From: Clostridiales bacterium
Lineage (GTDB): Bacteria; Bacillota; Clostridia; Christensenellales; Aristaeellaceae
Length of the DNA stretch: 64,000 nucleotides
Direction: 5' to 3'
Assembly (NCBI GenBank): GCA_015056325.1
Contig: SVGL01000001.1
Location: 186,001 to 250,000, forward strand
The first letter of the stretch is position 1; each line of letters begins with the position of its first letter. This document shows positions 22,757 through 30,294 of this stretch, piece after piece. The translations under genes were made by a program, and so were the position numbers. Below the pieces are notes generated by a model. The model saw only the letters and a list, made by a program, of their open reading frames with translations, did not search any database and had not been told where the DNA came from.

Positions 22757-25078
22757 ATGACCATGAAGGTGATGCACAGGCTTATAGCGCTGATCATGAC
22801 CGTTTTCATGCTTGCTTCAATGAATACCGCCCTGGCCGTCGATGACGCATACCCCAGTACTTATACATACAACTATGACTACTGGAGCGACATCCGTGAA
22901 TCGCCTGACGCATATCGCGTGGCAGATATGATCTTTGCCGGCGAACTCGGCCTGAGTGCCCTGAAGAAGCCCCAGAGCCTCTTCGTAAAGGGCAATGACC
23001 TCTACGTTGTCGATTCCGGCAACAACCGCATCCTGCAGATCCGCAGGGAAGGGGATGACTTCAAACTGCACCGTGTGATCGATAAGATCCAGGGCTGTGA
23101 AGTGACGACCTTCAACAATCCCAATGACGTCTTCGTGGACGCCGACGAAAACCTCTACATTGCCGACACCAACAACGGCCGTGTCGTGATGGTGGATAAG
23201 GACCTGAACTTCATAAAGGAGTTCGTAAAGCCTTCCAATGCTGTATTTGCTGCCACACAGAAGAAGGTAGATGCACAGACTGCTTCCGAGGCTGAAGATG
23301 GTGTGGCGTTCATCGTGCTTCCCATCGGTCTTTATACCGTGAAGGAAAAGGAAGGCAGCGCTGCTGTTGAGGGTTACAAGCTGACCCTGGCAGGCAACAA
23401 TGTGATGGCTTGTGTTCGCGAGTATCAGGCGACTGTGGTTCAGGTGGTCAATGTGTACAACGTCGATGATCCCCTGGCCAAGGACAAGATCAATGCTGAA
23501 AAGGTTGATGTTGCAGAGTTGACCTATGCGGACCTGACAGAGGAAGAGCTGGCGTTGGTGGCTGCTGCGGAGGCTCAAACCGGTGAGCCCCATGGCGTGC
23601 TGCGTGTGTCTGCTTTGTCAATGGGCGCGGAGAAGCCTGCTGGCATTGGATACGATATTACTGAAACGCAGCTGAATACCCCGTCGAATTACTACTCTGA
23701 TTTCCGCAATGGCGTCATGTCCGTGATTGCGCCTATTGGCGATTACACGGTGACGCAGGATGCAGCCACGGCTAAGGTTCCCAATTTCGAAACTACCGTC
23801 ATCGGCGGTGTGTACGACGTTTGGGTAAAGGAAGACTGTGCTGTTACGGCAAATTACATCAATCTGTATACCAATAGCAAGAACCCGCTGAATGCTGCGG
23901 ACTATTCCGTGCCGGAATCCACCTATGTGGAGTTGACCGAGCTGGAAAAGACCCTCATTGAGGAAATAGAGAAGGAACATCCCGGCACGGAATACGGCGC
24001 GATCCGCATTTCTGCATCCTCTGTCAATGCCGAGATTCCTTCCAATACTGTCTTTGATCAGAACCTGAGCTTCCTGCCCAACAAGCTGGTGGTTGACGTC
24101 TCTGGCCGCGTGTTCCTGCTGGCCACGAACGTCAACAAGGGCTTGATCAAGTTTGAGAACGACATGACCTTTACCGGTTTTGTCGGCGCGAACAAGGTCA
24201 GCTACAACTTCGCGGAGTACATCTGGAAGACCTACTTCATGACCAAGGAACAGCGTGAACAGCAGGCTTCCTTTGTTCCTACCGAGTACCATAACCTTTA
24301 CATTGATCCGGAAGCCTTCATTTACGCCACCAACACCATTTTCAGCGAGTATGATCTGCTGTGGGACGTTGCGCAGCCGATCCGCCGCCTCAATGGCATT
24401 GGCAATGATATCCTGATCAAGAATGACCGTTATCCCCCTATTGGCGATATCTACTGGGTGGAAGGCTCTGTGACCCTGGGCCCCTCCAAGCTGCACGATA
24501 TCACGGTTCTGGAGAATGACATCTACATTGCGCTGGACCATACCCGTGGCCGCATCTTCGGCTATGACAGCCAGGGCGTGATGCTGTGGGCCTTCGGCAC
24601 CACCGGCAGCAGCGAAGGTGCGTTCAACTCCGCCGTGTCCATTGAGCACATGGGCCGTGACCTGTTTGTGCTGGATGAGCTGTCCGGCGCCATCACGGTC
24701 TTCACCCCCACCGAGTACGGCAACCTGATCTATGATGCGATCGATGCCTATCTCAAGGGTGAATACGATGCCTCTGCCGAGCTGTGGGATGAGGTGCTCA
24801 AGCTCAACGCCAACTACAACCTGGCCTTCATCGGCATCGGTCGCTCTCTGATGCGTCAGGAGAACTACGAAGAGGCCATGGACTACTTCAAGATGGCAAA
24901 GGACCGCGATAATTACGGCCGCGCCTTCCGCTTCTTCCGCAAGGATTGGGTGGAAGAGAATATCTGGTGGATGATCATCGCCATTGCCGCGGTGCTGATT
25001 GTTCCGCTGGTACTGCGCGCAGGCAAGAAGATGAGAATGGAGGTGGAAATGCATGAGCGCAATCAAGTTCAGAAGTAA
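22757..25078 (+). CDS. secreted/membrane NHL-repeat plus TPR protein with internal duplicated insert
   Basis: Signal peptide; NHL-like blades (PQSLFVKGNDLYVVDSGNNRILQI, PNDVFVDADENLYIADTNNGRVVMVDKD); C-terminal TPR (YNLAFIGIGRSLMRQENYEEAMDYFKMAKD) and TM. Confidence 0.82.
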   Translation: MTMKVMHRLIALIMTVFMLASMNTALAVDDAYPSTYTYNYDYWSDIRESPDAYRVADMIFAGELGLSALKKPQSLFVKGNDLYVVDSGNNRILQIRREGDDFKLHRVIDKIQGCEVTTFNNPNDVFVDADENLYIADTNNGRVVMVDKDLNFIKEFVKPSNAVFAATQKKVDAQTASEAEDGVAFIVLPIGLYTVKEKEGSAAVEGYKLTLAGNNVMACVREYQATVVQVVNVYNVDDPLAKDKINAEKVDVAELTYADLTEEELALVAAAEAQTGEPHGVLRVSALSMGAEKPAGIGYDITETQLNTPSNYYSDFRNGVMSVIAPIGDYTVTQDAATAKVPNFETTVIGGVYDVWVKEDCAVTANYINLYTNSKNPLNAADYSVPESTYVELTELEKTLIEEIEKEHPGTEYGAIRISASSVNAEIPSNTVFDQNLSFLPNKLVVDVSGRVFLLATNVNKGLIKFENDMTFTGFVGANKVSYNFAEYIWKTYFMTKEQREQQASFVPTEYHNLYIDPEAFIYATNTIFSEYDLLWDVAQPIRRLNGIGNDILIKNDRYPPIGDIYWVEGSVTLGPSKLHDITVLENDIYIALDHTRGRIFGYDSQGVMLWAFGTTGSSEGAFNSAVSIEHMGRDLFVLDELSGAITVFTPTEYGNLIYDAIDAYLKGEYDASAELWDEVLKLNANYNLAFIGIGRSLMRQENYEEAMDYFKMAKDRDNYGRAFRFFRKDWVEENIWWMIIAIAAVLIVPLVLRAGKKMRMEVEMHERNQVQK
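23231..24056 (+). repeat. in-frame tandem duplicated insert (2 x about 134 aa) flanked by 19-nt near-identical direct repeats
   Basis: CCTTCCAATGCTGTATTTG (23231-23249) vs CCTTCCAATACTGTCTTTG (24038-24056), 17/19; offset 807 bp = 269 codons; protein units share PIGxYTV, VNxY, LTxxE and G(V/A)(L/I)R(V/I)SAxS. Confidence 0.75.
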
Positions 25079-25724
25079 GAAAGCCCACCCCAAGTGGGAT
25101 AAGTACGTCGCGTCCATGAAGTACGCCAAGTACGTGCTGTTCCATCCCTTTGACGGCTTCTGGGATCTGACCCACGAGAAGCGGGGTTCTGTCGCAGCTG
25201 CAAGCACTTACCTGTTCTTGTTCCTGTTTACCCGCATCATGCAGCTGATGTTTACGAACTTCCAGTTCATCAATGCGCCGCTGCAGTACATCAACATTTT
25301 TGAGCAGGCTGCGTCGCTGCTGCTGCCCTTCCTGATCCTCTGTCTGGCCAACTGGTCCATGACCACGCTGTTCGACGGCAAGGGCCGCTTCGTCGACATT
25401 TACATTGCCATGTGCTATGCGCTGGTGCCTTTCACGCTCATCCAGCTGCCCCTGGTGTTTGTCAGCAACATGATCGCGTTTGATGAAGCTGCTTTCTACA
25501 CTGTGCTGATGAGCTTCTCCAATGCCTGGTGCGTCATGCTGGTCTTTGTCGGTCTGATGCAGGTGCATGATTACAGCCCCAGCAAGACGCTGATCTTCAT
25601 CATCGTCACCATCGTGGGCGCGCTGATCATCATCTTCCTGCTGCTTGTGTTCTTCAGTCTTCTGGGCGATGCGGCGAGCTACTTCATCTCGCTGTATCGT
25701 GAGATCGCGTTCCGACTGTATTAA
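25053..25724 (+). CDS. Yip1 domain family membrane protein
   Basis: About 220 aa multi-TM; ANWSMTTLFDGKGRFVDIYIAMCYALVPF. Confidence 0.78.
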   Translation: MSAIKFRSKKAHPKWDKYVASMKYAKYVLFHPFDGFWDLTHEKRGSVAAASTYLFLFLFTRIMQLMFTNFQFINAPLQYINIFEQAASLLLPFLILCLANWSMTTLFDGKGRFVDIYIAMCYALVPFTLIQLPLVFVSNMIAFDEAAFYTVLMSFSNAWCVMLVFVGLMQVHDYSPSKTLIFIIVTIVGALIIIFLLLVFFSLLGDAASYFISLYREIAFRLY

Positions 25725-25739
25725 AGAGGAGGTAAGACA

Positions 25740-28307
25740 ATGAATAAACTCATTCGGCGCTTGCTTTCCTGTGCGATCGTGCTGGCCCTGGTGGCAGTGT
25801 TTGTGGTGTTTGTGGGTATCCCGCTTTTCTCCGAGGATAAAAACGTCCATGAGAGCAACCCCAACATCATGTACTATGAGGGGGATACGAAGAAGCCTCT
25901 GAAGATGGAAAATGACAAGCTCGTTTTCGAGCTTGATCCTGCCACGACCCACTTCAAGGTGACCGAGAAGGAGACCGGCCGCGAGTGGCTGTCCAATCCT
26001 GCCGATGCGGACAAGGACAAGATCGCCGTTTCCGCCAACAAGGAGACCCTGCAGGCCACGGCCATCGTGACCTACTCGACCTCCTCCGGTACGGTGGATC
26101 TGAACAACTACAAGTACTCCATTGAGAATGGCAACTATGCCCTCAGCCAGCAGGAGGACGGCTCCATTCGTGTGGATTATGCCATTGGCAAGATCGAAAA
26201 GATCTACATGATCCCCACGGCAATCACCAAGGAGCGCTATGATGCCTTTGTGGCTGAGATGAAGAGCGCCACCAAGAAGAAGCTCTCCTCCAACTACACC
26301 CTGTACAAGCCCGAGGATCTGGACAGCAAGAAGAACAAGGATGAGATCATCGCTTTGTATCCCTCCGTGACGGAGCAGGCGCTGTACATCCTCAAGTCCG
26401 GCACCTCTGCCAACAACAAGGCCAAGATCGAAGGTTACTGGGCTGAGGTCGGCTATAGTCAGGAAGACTACGAGATCGATCAGCAGCTGGTGGCCGGCGC
26501 GAAGGATAACTCCGGCGCTGTCTACAACGTAACGTTCATCTACCGTCTGGAGGATGGCGATCTGGTGCTGGAAGTACCCTACAGCGAGATTCGCTACAAG
26601 GCTGATTACCCCATCACCTACGTCACGCCTCTGCCCATGTTCGGTGCGGCCGGCGTTGAGGATGAAGGCTTCATGTTCATCCCCGAAGGCGGCGGCGCGA
26701 TCATCAACTTCAACAACGGCAAGACGCAGCAGAACAGCTACTACGCCAATATGTACGGCTGGGACTACGCTGTGCGCCGTAAGGAACTGGTCAACGAGAC
26801 CCGCAACAGCTTCCCCGTGTTCGGCATGGCCAAGAACGGCGGTTCCTTCCTGTGCATGATGGAGGGCGCTACCGCGTACGGCGGCGTGCAGGCTGATGTG
26901 AGCATGCGCTACAACAGCTACAACTGGATGGCGGCCAAGTACAACGTGATCCACGCGGATCAGTACAACGTTTCTGCCAAGACCGCTCAGCTGGTGTACA
27001 TGTTTGAAAGTGCTGTGCCCCAGGATACCGTCATTCATCGCTATCGCTTCCTGAATACGGATAACTACGTGGATATGGCCAATGCCTATGGCGACTATCT
27101 GCGCGAGGCCTATCCGGAAATGGCCGCTGCTGCGGCTTCCGAGATCAGCCCCGTGTCTGTGGAGCTGGTTGGTGCGATTGACAAGACCGTTGTCAAGTTC
27201 GGCCTGCCCATCGACTCCGTCGTGGCAACCACGACTTTCGCTCAGGCTGAGAAAATCATCGAAGAGCTGTGCGGTAAAGGCGTGCAGAATCTGAATGTGC
27301 GCTATGCGGGCTGGGCAAACGGCGGCATCACCCAGCAGGTGATGACGGATGTGGACATCCTCAGTGAGCTGGGCGGCAAGAAGGGGATGACCCAGCTGAT
27401 CGCCAAGGCCAAGACGCTGAACGTGCCCGTCTACTTTGACGGCGTCAACTGCTTCGCCTACGATAGCGGCATTCTGGAGGGTTTCGTTCCCTTCACCAAT
27501 GCGGCTCGATACACCACCCGCGAGCAGGTGCTTTTGCAGCCCTTTGACGTTGTTCATTACCAGAAGGCGGACTGGATGGACACCTACTATCTGGTGCGTC
27601 CCGACTTCGCCCAGAAGAATGCCGCCAATCTCCTTGACACCCTGGAAGAGATGGACGCTGTGGGCGTGTCCTTCCGCGATATTGGCTACCTGCTGAGTGC
27701 GGACTACAACCCCAAGTCCACCACCACCCGTGAAGAAGTCAAGGCCATGAATATCCAGACCATGAAGGATGCCCAGGCCAAGGGCCAGAACGTGATGATC
27801 CGCATGGGCAACGATTATGCCGTGCCCTATGCTTCCATCATCACCGATATGGACTTGGCTGGCAACAAGTACACCATCATTGACGAGATGGTGCCCTTCT
27901 ACCAGATTGCCCTGCACGGCATGAAGGACTACACCGGCGAGCCCATCAACCTGGCCGGCGACTATCTGCAGGAGTTCCTGCGCTGCGTGGAATACGGCGC
28001 TGGCCTCAATTTCACCTTCATGGCGGAGGATACCTGGGTCCTGCAGGATACCTATCACTCCAACTTCTTCGGCGCCGGTTATGATTACTGGGCTGAGGAT
28101 GCGGTAGAAATGATTGCCCGTTATCAGAAGGACATGGCTGGCCTCAATCAGCAGCGCATCGTTTCTCATAACTGGGCGAGCGACCATGTGGCGGTGACCG
28201 GTTACGCGGACGGCACCAAGGTCTACGTCAACTACGGTATGGAAGACTACGACGCCGACGGCGTACATGTGCCTTCCCGCAATTACACTGTGGAAAGGGG
28301 GGAGTAA
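25740..28307 (+). CDS. DUF5696-like secreted/anchored protein (putative carbohydrate-active)
   Basis: N-terminal TM; 855 aa; position and sequence resemble DUF5696 proteins adjacent to sugar ABC permeases; family call from recall only. Confidence 0.65.
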   Translation: MNKLIRRLLSCAIVLALVAVFVVFVGIPLFSEDKNVHESNPNIMYYEGDTKKPLKMENDKLVFELDPATTHFKVTEKETGREWLSNPADADKDKIAVSANKETLQATAIVTYSTSSGTVDLNNYKYSIENGNYALSQQEDGSIRVDYAIGKIEKIYMIPTAITKERYDAFVAEMKSATKKKLSSNYTLYKPEDLDSKKNKDEIIALYPSVTEQALYILKSGTSANNKAKIEGYWAEVGYSQEDYEIDQQLVAGAKDNSGAVYNVTFIYRLEDGDLVLEVPYSEIRYKADYPITYVTPLPMFGAAGVEDEGFMFIPEGGGAIINFNNGKTQQNSYYANMYGWDYAVRRKELVNETRNSFPVFGMAKNGGSFLCMMEGATAYGGVQADVSMRYNSYNWMAAKYNVIHADQYNVSAKTAQLVYMFESAVPQDTVIHRYRFLNTDNYVDMANAYGDYLREAYPEMAAAAASEISPVSVELVGAIDKTVVKFGLPIDSVVATTTFAQAEKIIEELCGKGVQNLNVRYAGWANGGITQQVMTDVDILSELGGKKGMTQLIAKAKTLNVPVYFDGVNCFAYDSGILEGFVPFTNAARYTTREQVLLQPFDVVHYQKADWMDTYYLVRPDFAQKNAANLLDTLEEMDAVGVSFRDIGYLLSADYNPKSTTTREEVKAMNIQTMKDAQAKGQNVMIRMGNDYAVPYASIITDMDLAGNKYTIIDEMVPFYQIALHGMKDYTGEPINLAGDYLQEFLRCVEYGAGLNFTFMAEDTWVLQDTYHSNFFGAGYDYWAEDAVEMIARYQKDMAGLNQQRIVSHNWASDHVAVTGYADGTKVYVNYGMEDYDADGVHVPSRNYTVERGE

Positions 28308-28310
28308 TCG

Positions 28311-29291
28311 ATGGCGAATATGAATGCACCCCGTGAACATTGGTACGATGGCATCGTTGAAGCCGTGCAGACTTACATCCCCGGCAATGCGACCTATCGA
28401 ACCATGCGCGCCCGCAATGCGCGTATCGGCACCTGGTTCATCCTGCCCTTCATCATCGGCTTCCTGGTTTTCATGTGCAGGCCTCTGGTGGAGTCCTTCA
28501 TCTTCTCCTTCAATGATGTGCAGCTGATTCCTGGTCAGGGCTATGCCAAGACCTTCGTTGGCATCAGCAACTACAAGCATGCCTTCCTGAGCGACCCTGA
28601 GTTCAATACCTTGCTGGTGGAAGAGATTGGTCAGATGGTCATCAACACCATCGCTACGCTGGTCATGTCCTTCGTGGTGGCGGTCATCCTGAACCAGGAA
28701 TTCAAGGGCCGCGTGCTGTGCCGCGCTATCTTCTTCCTGCCCGTCATCCTGTCCTCCGGCGTTCTGCCCGGCATCGAGCATCAGAACGAGTTCTACGATA
28801 TGATGGCCGGCATGGCGGAGGCGGTGGAGGGTTCCTCCGGCGTCAACATCTCCCAGACCCTGCAGGATCTGCTGTCGGTGTCCGGCGTGGGCAGCCAGTT
28901 CTTCGAAGTTGTCTTCACCATGATCGATTCCATCTACGATATCGTCATGGCCTCCGGTATTCAGATCATCGTGTTCCTGTCCGGCCTGCAGTCCATTTCT
29001 CCCTCTCTGTATGAGGCGGCGGACGTGGAAGGATGCTCTGCCTGGGAATCCTTCTGGAAGATCACCTTCCCCATGGTCAGCCCCCTGCTGCTGGTCAACT
29101 GCATCTACACGATTATCGACTTCTTCATGAAGAACGACAACAAGGTGATGGAGCTGATCTACCAGGTGACCTATCAGGACTTCAAGTTCGGCATCTCTGC
29201 CGCAATGAGCTGGACTTACTTCGCGATTGCCCTTGCTTTCATCGGCATCAGCTCGTTCATCATCTCCAAGGCGGTGAAGTCTTATGAGTAA
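28311..29291 (+). CDS. sugar ABC transporter permease
   Basis: EAADVEGCSAWESFWKITFPMVSPLLLV EAA loop; multi-TM. Confidence 0.9.
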   Translation: MANMNAPREHWYDGIVEAVQTYIPGNATYRTMRARNARIGTWFILPFIIGFLVFMCRPLVESFIFSFNDVQLIPGQGYAKTFVGISNYKHAFLSDPEFNTLLVEEIGQMVINTIATLVMSFVVAVILNQEFKGRVLCRAIFFLPVILSSGVLPGIEHQNEFYDMMAGMAEAVEGSSGVNISQTLQDLLSVSGVGSQFFEVVFTMIDSIYDIVMASGIQIIVFLSGLQSISPSLYEAADVEGCSAWESFWKITFPMVSPLLLVNCIYTIIDFFMKNDNKVMELIYQVTYQDFKFGISAAMSWTYFAIALAFIGISSFIISKAVKSYE

Positions 29292-30294
29292 AAACAATAC
29301 GGTCTTCATTGGCAAGAATAAGAACTTCTGGGACCGCAACCGCCGCAGCGATGGCTACCTGCTTAAGCGTGAGCTGAAGCGCAGGTTCGTTTCCATCGCC
29401 CGTGCACTGCTGCTGTTCGGCCTGTGCTTCATGATCATCCAGCCCATCCTGATCCGTTTCTCCACCGGCTTCATGACGGAGCCGGACCTGTACGATTCCA
29501 CCATCGTGCTGGTACCCCGCCACCTGACGCTGGAGAACTATCAGCATGTCTTTAATCTGACCAATTTCCCTGGCTCCATGCTTAACACCCTGTGGATTTC
29601 CCTGCTGGTGTCGGTGCTGCAGGTTGTTTCGTGTACGCTGGTGGCCTACGGCTTTGCCCGCTATCAGTTCCCGCTGAAGAAGTTCTGGTTTGCCTGCGTG
29701 GTGCTGCTGATCATCGTGCCGCCCACTACCATCCAGACTTCGCTGTACATGTACTTCGCCAACTTCGACATCCTGGGCATTTTCAAGGCCATCAATGGCA
29801 AGCCCATCAACCTGCGTACGTCCATCATTCCTTACGCGATGATGAGCCTGACCTGCATGGGCCTGAAAAACGGCTTGTATATCTACATGCTGCGCCAGTA
29901 CTTCAAGAACGTCCCCGACAGCCTGGAAGAGGCTGCCTTCGTGGATGGCTGCAGCACCATGCGTACCTTCACGCAGATCATGCTGCCCGACGCCATGCCC
30001 ACGATTGCCAGCTGCTTCCTGTTCTCCTTCGTCTGGCAGTGGACGGACCTGTTCTACTCCCGTAACTTCCTCAGCTCCTACAAGGTTTACGCTGTGGAAC
30101 TGTCCTCCATCGTGTCCCGTATGGCGCGTTACTTCTCTGCGGATGCTTCCAAGACGGTCGTTATTCCCAATGGCCGTCAGCAGCAGCTGATTGCCATCGG
30201 CGTGCTGATCTGCTGCATCCCGCTGATCATCCTGTACTGCTTCACCCAGAAGACCTTCGTGCAGTCTCTGGCCATGACCGGCAGCAAGGAGTAA
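29284..30294 (+). CDS. carbohydrate ABC transporter permease
   Basis: EEAAFVDGCSTMRTFTQIMLPDAMPT EAA loop; multi-TM. Confidence 0.9.
   Translation: MSKNNTVFIGKNKNFWDRNRRSDGYLLKRELKRRFVSIARALLLFGLCFMIIQPILIRFSTGFMTEPDLYDSTIVLVPRHLTLENYQHVFNLTNFPGSMLNTLWISLLVSVLQVVSCTLVAYGFARYQFPLKKFWFACVVLLIIVPPTTIQTSLYMYFANFDILGIFKAINGKPINLRTSIIPYAMMSLTCMGLKNGLYIYMLRQYFKNVPDSLEEAAFVDGCSTMRTFTQIMLPDAMPTIASCFLFSFVWQWTDLFYSRNFLSSYKVYAVELSSIVSRMARYFSADASKTVVIPNGRQQQLIAIGVLICCIPLIILYCFTQKTFVQSLAMTGSKE

Follow-up and report, generated by a model that had tools for sequence, protein, structure and literature searches.

Results

The window, i.e. the whole stretch of 64,000 nucleotides analysed here, comes from a gut bacterium and contains an operon in which the gene for an NHL/TPR protein is accompanied by those for a solute-binding protein, two permeases, a Yip1 protein, a DUF5696 protein and a further permease. 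The NHL/TPR protein is laid out as an N-terminal hydrophobic signal-type segment, an NHL propeller (38.7 bits by Pfam, cut-off 20), a TPR region with weak Pfam matches and a C-terminal membrane helix, and is an extracytoplasmic, membrane-anchored member of a sugar-ABC-transporter operon. Along this region, the nearest relative, locus L033, is 91-93% identical in DNA upstream; identity drops to 72-79% where the NHL gene begins and remains near 80% further downstream, a pattern that suggests a recombination breakpoint at ~22790. The DUF5696 protein of the operon is encoded at 25740-28307, and a literature search on its family found no paper mentioning DUF5696. A 1454-aa open frame that runs antisense to the operon genes (24975-29339, minus strand) is probably a by-product of high GC3.

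The propeller is interrupted by an insert of ~265 extra in-frame residues, composed of two alignable units (Table 1). A sequence-only reading of this DNA had pointed to two direct repeats, CCTTCCAATGCTGTATTTG and CCTTCCAATACTGTCTTTG, which are present exactly as described, identical at 17/19 positions and 807 bp apart in an ORF that is open throughout; no other pair among the 2.5 million 19-mer pairs in the gene reaches at least 17/19. The same reading called the insert tandem-duplicated. The two units, of ~134 aa each, are indeed kin, but old: they share 32% amino acid identity, so that the term holds for their kinship and not for a recent event. Likewise, the two units are real but the borders given to them lie one strand off from the domain: in an alignment with the 97-aa array repeats described below, the conserved domain opens with the strand formerly put at each unit's end (GVLRVSALSMGAE, GAIRISASSVNAE). 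The codon-usage comparison proposed at that time does set the insert apart, with a GC3 of 0.60 against 0.755 in the flanks (Fisher p = 1e-5); neighbouring genes range from 0.69 to 0.86 in 263-codon windows. Linker 2 also contains a 16-nt inverted repeat (23903-23918 and 23979-23994, 94% complementary, 60 nt apart).

Table 1. Coordinates in the window of the NHL/TPR gene and of the parts of its insert.
Feature	Coordinates	Strand	Basis
NHL/TPR protein, 773 aa	22757..25078	+	ORF open throughout; Pfam; DSSP of AlphaFold2 model
N-terminal propeller blades ahead of insertion	22904..23227	+	pLDDT 88-97 at residues 51-160; Pfam NHL match at residues 119-144
CnaB-like domain 1, strands B to G	23228..23467	+	array-repeat alignment; HMM match 37.7 bits; model strands
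Left 19-nt direct repeat copy (PSNAVF), start of strand B, domain 1	23231..23249	+	
Linker 1 with predicted helix (LTEEELALVAAAEAQTGEPH)	23468..23593	+	
CnaB-like domain 2, strands A to G	23594..23881	+	HMM match; array-repeat alignment
Linker 2 with predicted helix, homologous to linker 1	23882..23995	+	
Second strand A copy (GAIRISASSVNAE), C-terminal end of insert, may complete domain 1	23996..24034	+	alignment; predicted strand
Right 19-nt direct repeat copy (PSNTVF), runs into native DQNLSFLP	24038..24056	+	
Remainder of propeller, native sequence resumed	24057..24712	+	empty alleles; solved NHL propellers align

The segment consists of foreign-looking domains inserted in frame in the propeller, and its empty site can be seen in relatives. 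We compared 80 homologous loci from GTDB genomes by pairwise alignment across the site, and 79 of them carry an empty allele, L032 being the sole exception; the uninterrupted form at the site is KPTDATFDQSLSFLP (KPTDATFDQ-type). All other homologues examined thus have the uninterrupted allele that the sequence-only reading had suggested looking for, the closest relatives (L033, L034 and L036, ~80% identical) among them, and the segment is no ancestral domain carried by all close homologues. Among 308 genomes of the family, two carry the insert, namely the window's own genome and G307, which belongs to another genus and is the same organism as L032 as judged by DNA match. The L032/G307 insert occupies the same codon as that of the window and its units are orthologous one to one to those of the window; the inserts are 49% identical whereas the flanks are 73-74% identical.

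The insertion site lies in an inter-blade loop, where the blade whose final strand is NFIKEF leads over to the first strand of its neighbour. Against the full-length model, solved NHL propellers (275-292 residues) align over 582-602 columns, spanning the insert, and the NHL structures of TRIM71, Thin and TRIM2 reach TM-scores by target of 0.73-0.77. Array fragments that MAFFT misplaced in the full-length alignment were left out of this structure prediction. As modelled, the predicted propeller closes without the insert, which is not part of it. The preceding inter-blade loop (around residues 93-117 in the numbering of the uninterrupted protein) holds other, lineage-specific and unrelated insertions, 45-117 aa long, in L048, L053, L065, L067, L068, L080, L082 and L091, some of them low-complexity or coiled-coil like, which argues that inter-blade loops tolerate additions. 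We considered whether these insertions (in L048, L080, L091 and others) were the same domain as the one described here and rejected this, given that they sit in the preceding loop and are unlike the CnaB-like units. Four paralogous NHL/TPR proteins from members of the genus (L147, L148, L149 and L150) reach 916-982 aa, with ~390-420 residues added behind the blade that precedes the site; these large inserts were also rejected as copies of the domain and resemble additional propeller blades instead.

As judged by sequence profiles, both units are CnaB-like adhesin-type domains (SpaA/DUF5979, 'prealbumin-like', transthyretin clan). Pfam SpaA scores 13.3 bits on the window's insert, under its cut-off of 23.1, and a Pfam scan of the L032 insert gave no match. 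The units are closest to a tandem array of 97-aa repeats in a giant surface protein of the same bacterial family (genome G214, locus L156), with a phmmer E-value of 4e-33 against the G214 array repeats, per-domain HMM values down to 1e-17 and an hhalign probability of 98.5 (E 3.7e-15); HMM searches also match them to single units in L157, L159 and L160. The array repeats are themselves SpaA/DUF5979 by Pfam and match the CnaB region of the solved structure 6FWV, so that the 'prealbumin-like' type first proposed for the units is upheld by the hhalign and HMM matches. An AlphaFold2 model of the insert (pLDDT 79.6) has the strand order expected for CnaB; a Foldseek search with this model against PDB and BFVD returned no match under E 0.001, and CnaB membership therefore rests on the sequence profiles. 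In CnaB domains an isopeptide bond links a first-strand Lys to a last-strand Asn or Asp with the assistance of a Glu (PMC12617251). The Lys is replaced in all four insert units while the Asn is kept, and the Glu of the triad is kept in domain 1 only, with Gln in its place in domain 2. No isopeptide bond is thus expected, and on these residues the units are classed as CnaB-like by kinship and not as isopeptide domains.

Discussion

We propose, with a probability of roughly six in ten, that a pair of CnaB-like domains with helical linkers, derived from a tandem array, entered the inter-blade loop in register at a place that resembles the start of strand B, and that the pair may now serve as a stalk or contact module. 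The phase of the insert is the starting point of this proposal: it starts at strand B (KPSNAVF; VPEGATF in the array) and ends with an extra strand A followed by the start of another strand B (IPSNTVF), so that, in the array's own register, its length is exactly two periods, with the direct repeats as the boundary between one period and the next. When the VPEGATF motif, which represents a donor relative rather than the donor itself, is compared with the empty host proteins, its best match is the insertion site in 6/6 of them (rank 1 of ~498 positions); since the six proteins are related, this amounts to roughly one observation at ~1 in 500. At the DNA level, the rank of the site is 1st, 3rd and 2nd of 1494 or 1491 positions for the three nearest relatives and only from 2 to 23 for the other three empty hosts. 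The match at the protein level favours in-register recombination with a repeat array, and from their motifs we favour reading the direct repeats as a unit start (VPEGATF) rather than as a transposon scar.

A possible course of events may be suggested. The source would be a tandem array of CnaB-like domains, two whole periods of which would enter where the native loop (KPxDATF) resembles the strand-B start VPEGATF. Short-homology recombination would bring them in, for example via a circle excised from the array. Entry in register would leave the same strand-B start at either end, hence the direct repeats, and would also account for the opening on strand B and the spare terminal strand A. The spare strand could close domain 1, in which case the insert would enter and leave the propeller at neighbouring points. 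Several results stand against the proposal: a pairing of strand A with domain 1 is not readable in the model, the insert model has no Foldseek match and the SpaA score is under its cut-off, as given above, and searches of genomes of the family, the order and the class, together with a motif scan, found no donor array whose units are joined by such 37-aa helical linkers. As for its role, the pair may project from one face of the propeller as a stalk or contact module, modifying the contacts of the propeller with no covalent cross-link.

The direct repeats at both ends could also be the target-site duplication of a transposon-like or intein-like element, and the sequence-only reading had indeed spoken of a mobile domain. 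As far as a transposable element is meant, this did not hold: the insert codes only for the two domains and contains no recombinase or splicing family, no other copy exists in its own genome, searches of phages, plasmids and viral contigs gave no match, and the repeat falls on a domain phase boundary. We thus consider such an element very improbable. A chimera of assembly or binning is more improbable still: the genome is a draft (84.9% complete, 5.25% contamination), but the reading frame is intact over both joins and a second, separately assembled genome carries an orthologue of the insert, placed at the same codon.

How often the insertion occurred is a more balanced matter. It may have occurred once, in a common ancestor, the old insert being later replaced by empty alleles (or having moved once, long ago, between genera) while the domains evolved fast. 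The dimers are orthologous unit by unit and share common end motifs, as a single event would have it, and the operon bears signs of recombination, namely the fall in identity to L033 at ~22790 described above. On the operon tree, however, the insert would have to be lost or replaced on several separate occasions under vertical descent, and no empty allele retains a PSN/V scar, all of them keeping the KPxDxTFDQ form. With these points on both sides, we put a single old insertion at even odds. The other reading, that related but already diverged pairs were inserted independently at the same codon, the loop being a recurrent landing site by its resemblance to the repeat, draws on the phylogeny: the tree of four neighbouring genes puts the window sister to the empty L033 and L032 sister to the empty L040, and a clade of carriers is strongly rejected on it (lnL -313, p-AU 1e-101); the host gene tree also separates the two carriers. 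The inserts are also more diverged than the flanks and random at fourfold sites, the GC3 of the window insert deviates while that of the L032 insert does not, and the similarity of the carrier flanks shows no local rise, L032 ranking 75th over the residues just right of the site. A recent exchange between the carriers finds no sign either, with no raised flank similarity and no shared tract. Fourfold sites are near random in the flanks too, so that the ages are indistinguishable and dating from these sites, being near saturation, is uninformative; both carriers share unit order, linkers and end motifs (KPSNA.F, IPSNTVFDQ). We hold two independent insertions only tentatively, as the less probable course. 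The duplication of the units is older than the divergence of the window and L032 inserts, as their one-to-one orthology indicates.

Returning to entry in register from an array, it is tempting to speculate that tandem adhesin arrays are a source of cassettes more generally, their whole periods recombining in register into unrelated proteins wherever these resemble the repeat start by chance, to give in-frame inserts with adjacent ends, with the same loop hit independently in two genera; this broader idea we consider unlikely. Domain insertions are mostly observed long after the event; in the present case one can see the empty site together with the likely donor domain family and with joins that keep the phase of the repeat. 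The locus thereby offers a concrete, testable route by which a repeat array may plant a foldable domain pair in an unrelated protein, and it places an adhesin-type domain lacking its covalent bond in a transporter-associated protein.

The NHL propellers of TRIM71, Thin and TRIM2 have the same fold as the host part but are eukaryotic, whereas the host described here is a bacterial TPR fusion, anchored in the membrane and encoded in a transporter operon. Propeller sialidases, e.g. that of Clostridium perfringens, contain insert domains, and they are likewise bacterial propellers with an inserted beta domain; they are carbohydrate-active enzymes, however, while the present host is no enzyme and its insert is sporadic. 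Domain insertion into propellers is already known from the integrin alpha-I domain, and the present case is an unusual variant of it with an unusual domain combination. The integrin alpha propeller carries the inserted alpha-I domain in some lineages only (PMC10659397); the likeness lies in a lineage-dependent extra domain in a propeller, empty relatives and an intact propeller around the insert being seen here too, and the difference in that the alpha-I domain is another, eukaryotic domain with demonstrated ligand binding and no kinship to the CnaB-like pair. The insert units themselves compare best with the CnaB-like domains of giant adhesins and pilins (Pfam SpaA PF17802, DUF5979 PF19407 and Cna_B PF05738), which they match by whole-domain profile, with the LP-G-Y-V-E core and the final Asn-x-Tyr, and which form long tandem arrays in the same bacterial family. 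Unlike the CnaB domains of arrays, they have no isopeptide Lys, have lost the Glu in domain 2, are joined by ~37-aa helical linkers and sit inside a propeller instead of a stalk array. CnaB domains can also be interrupted by other domains, as in SpaA 2XID (PMC12617251), and this tolerance of loop insertions makes a discontinuous domain 1 plausible; in SpaA the CnaB domain is the host of an insertion within a pilin, whereas here the CnaB-like pair is itself the inserted part.
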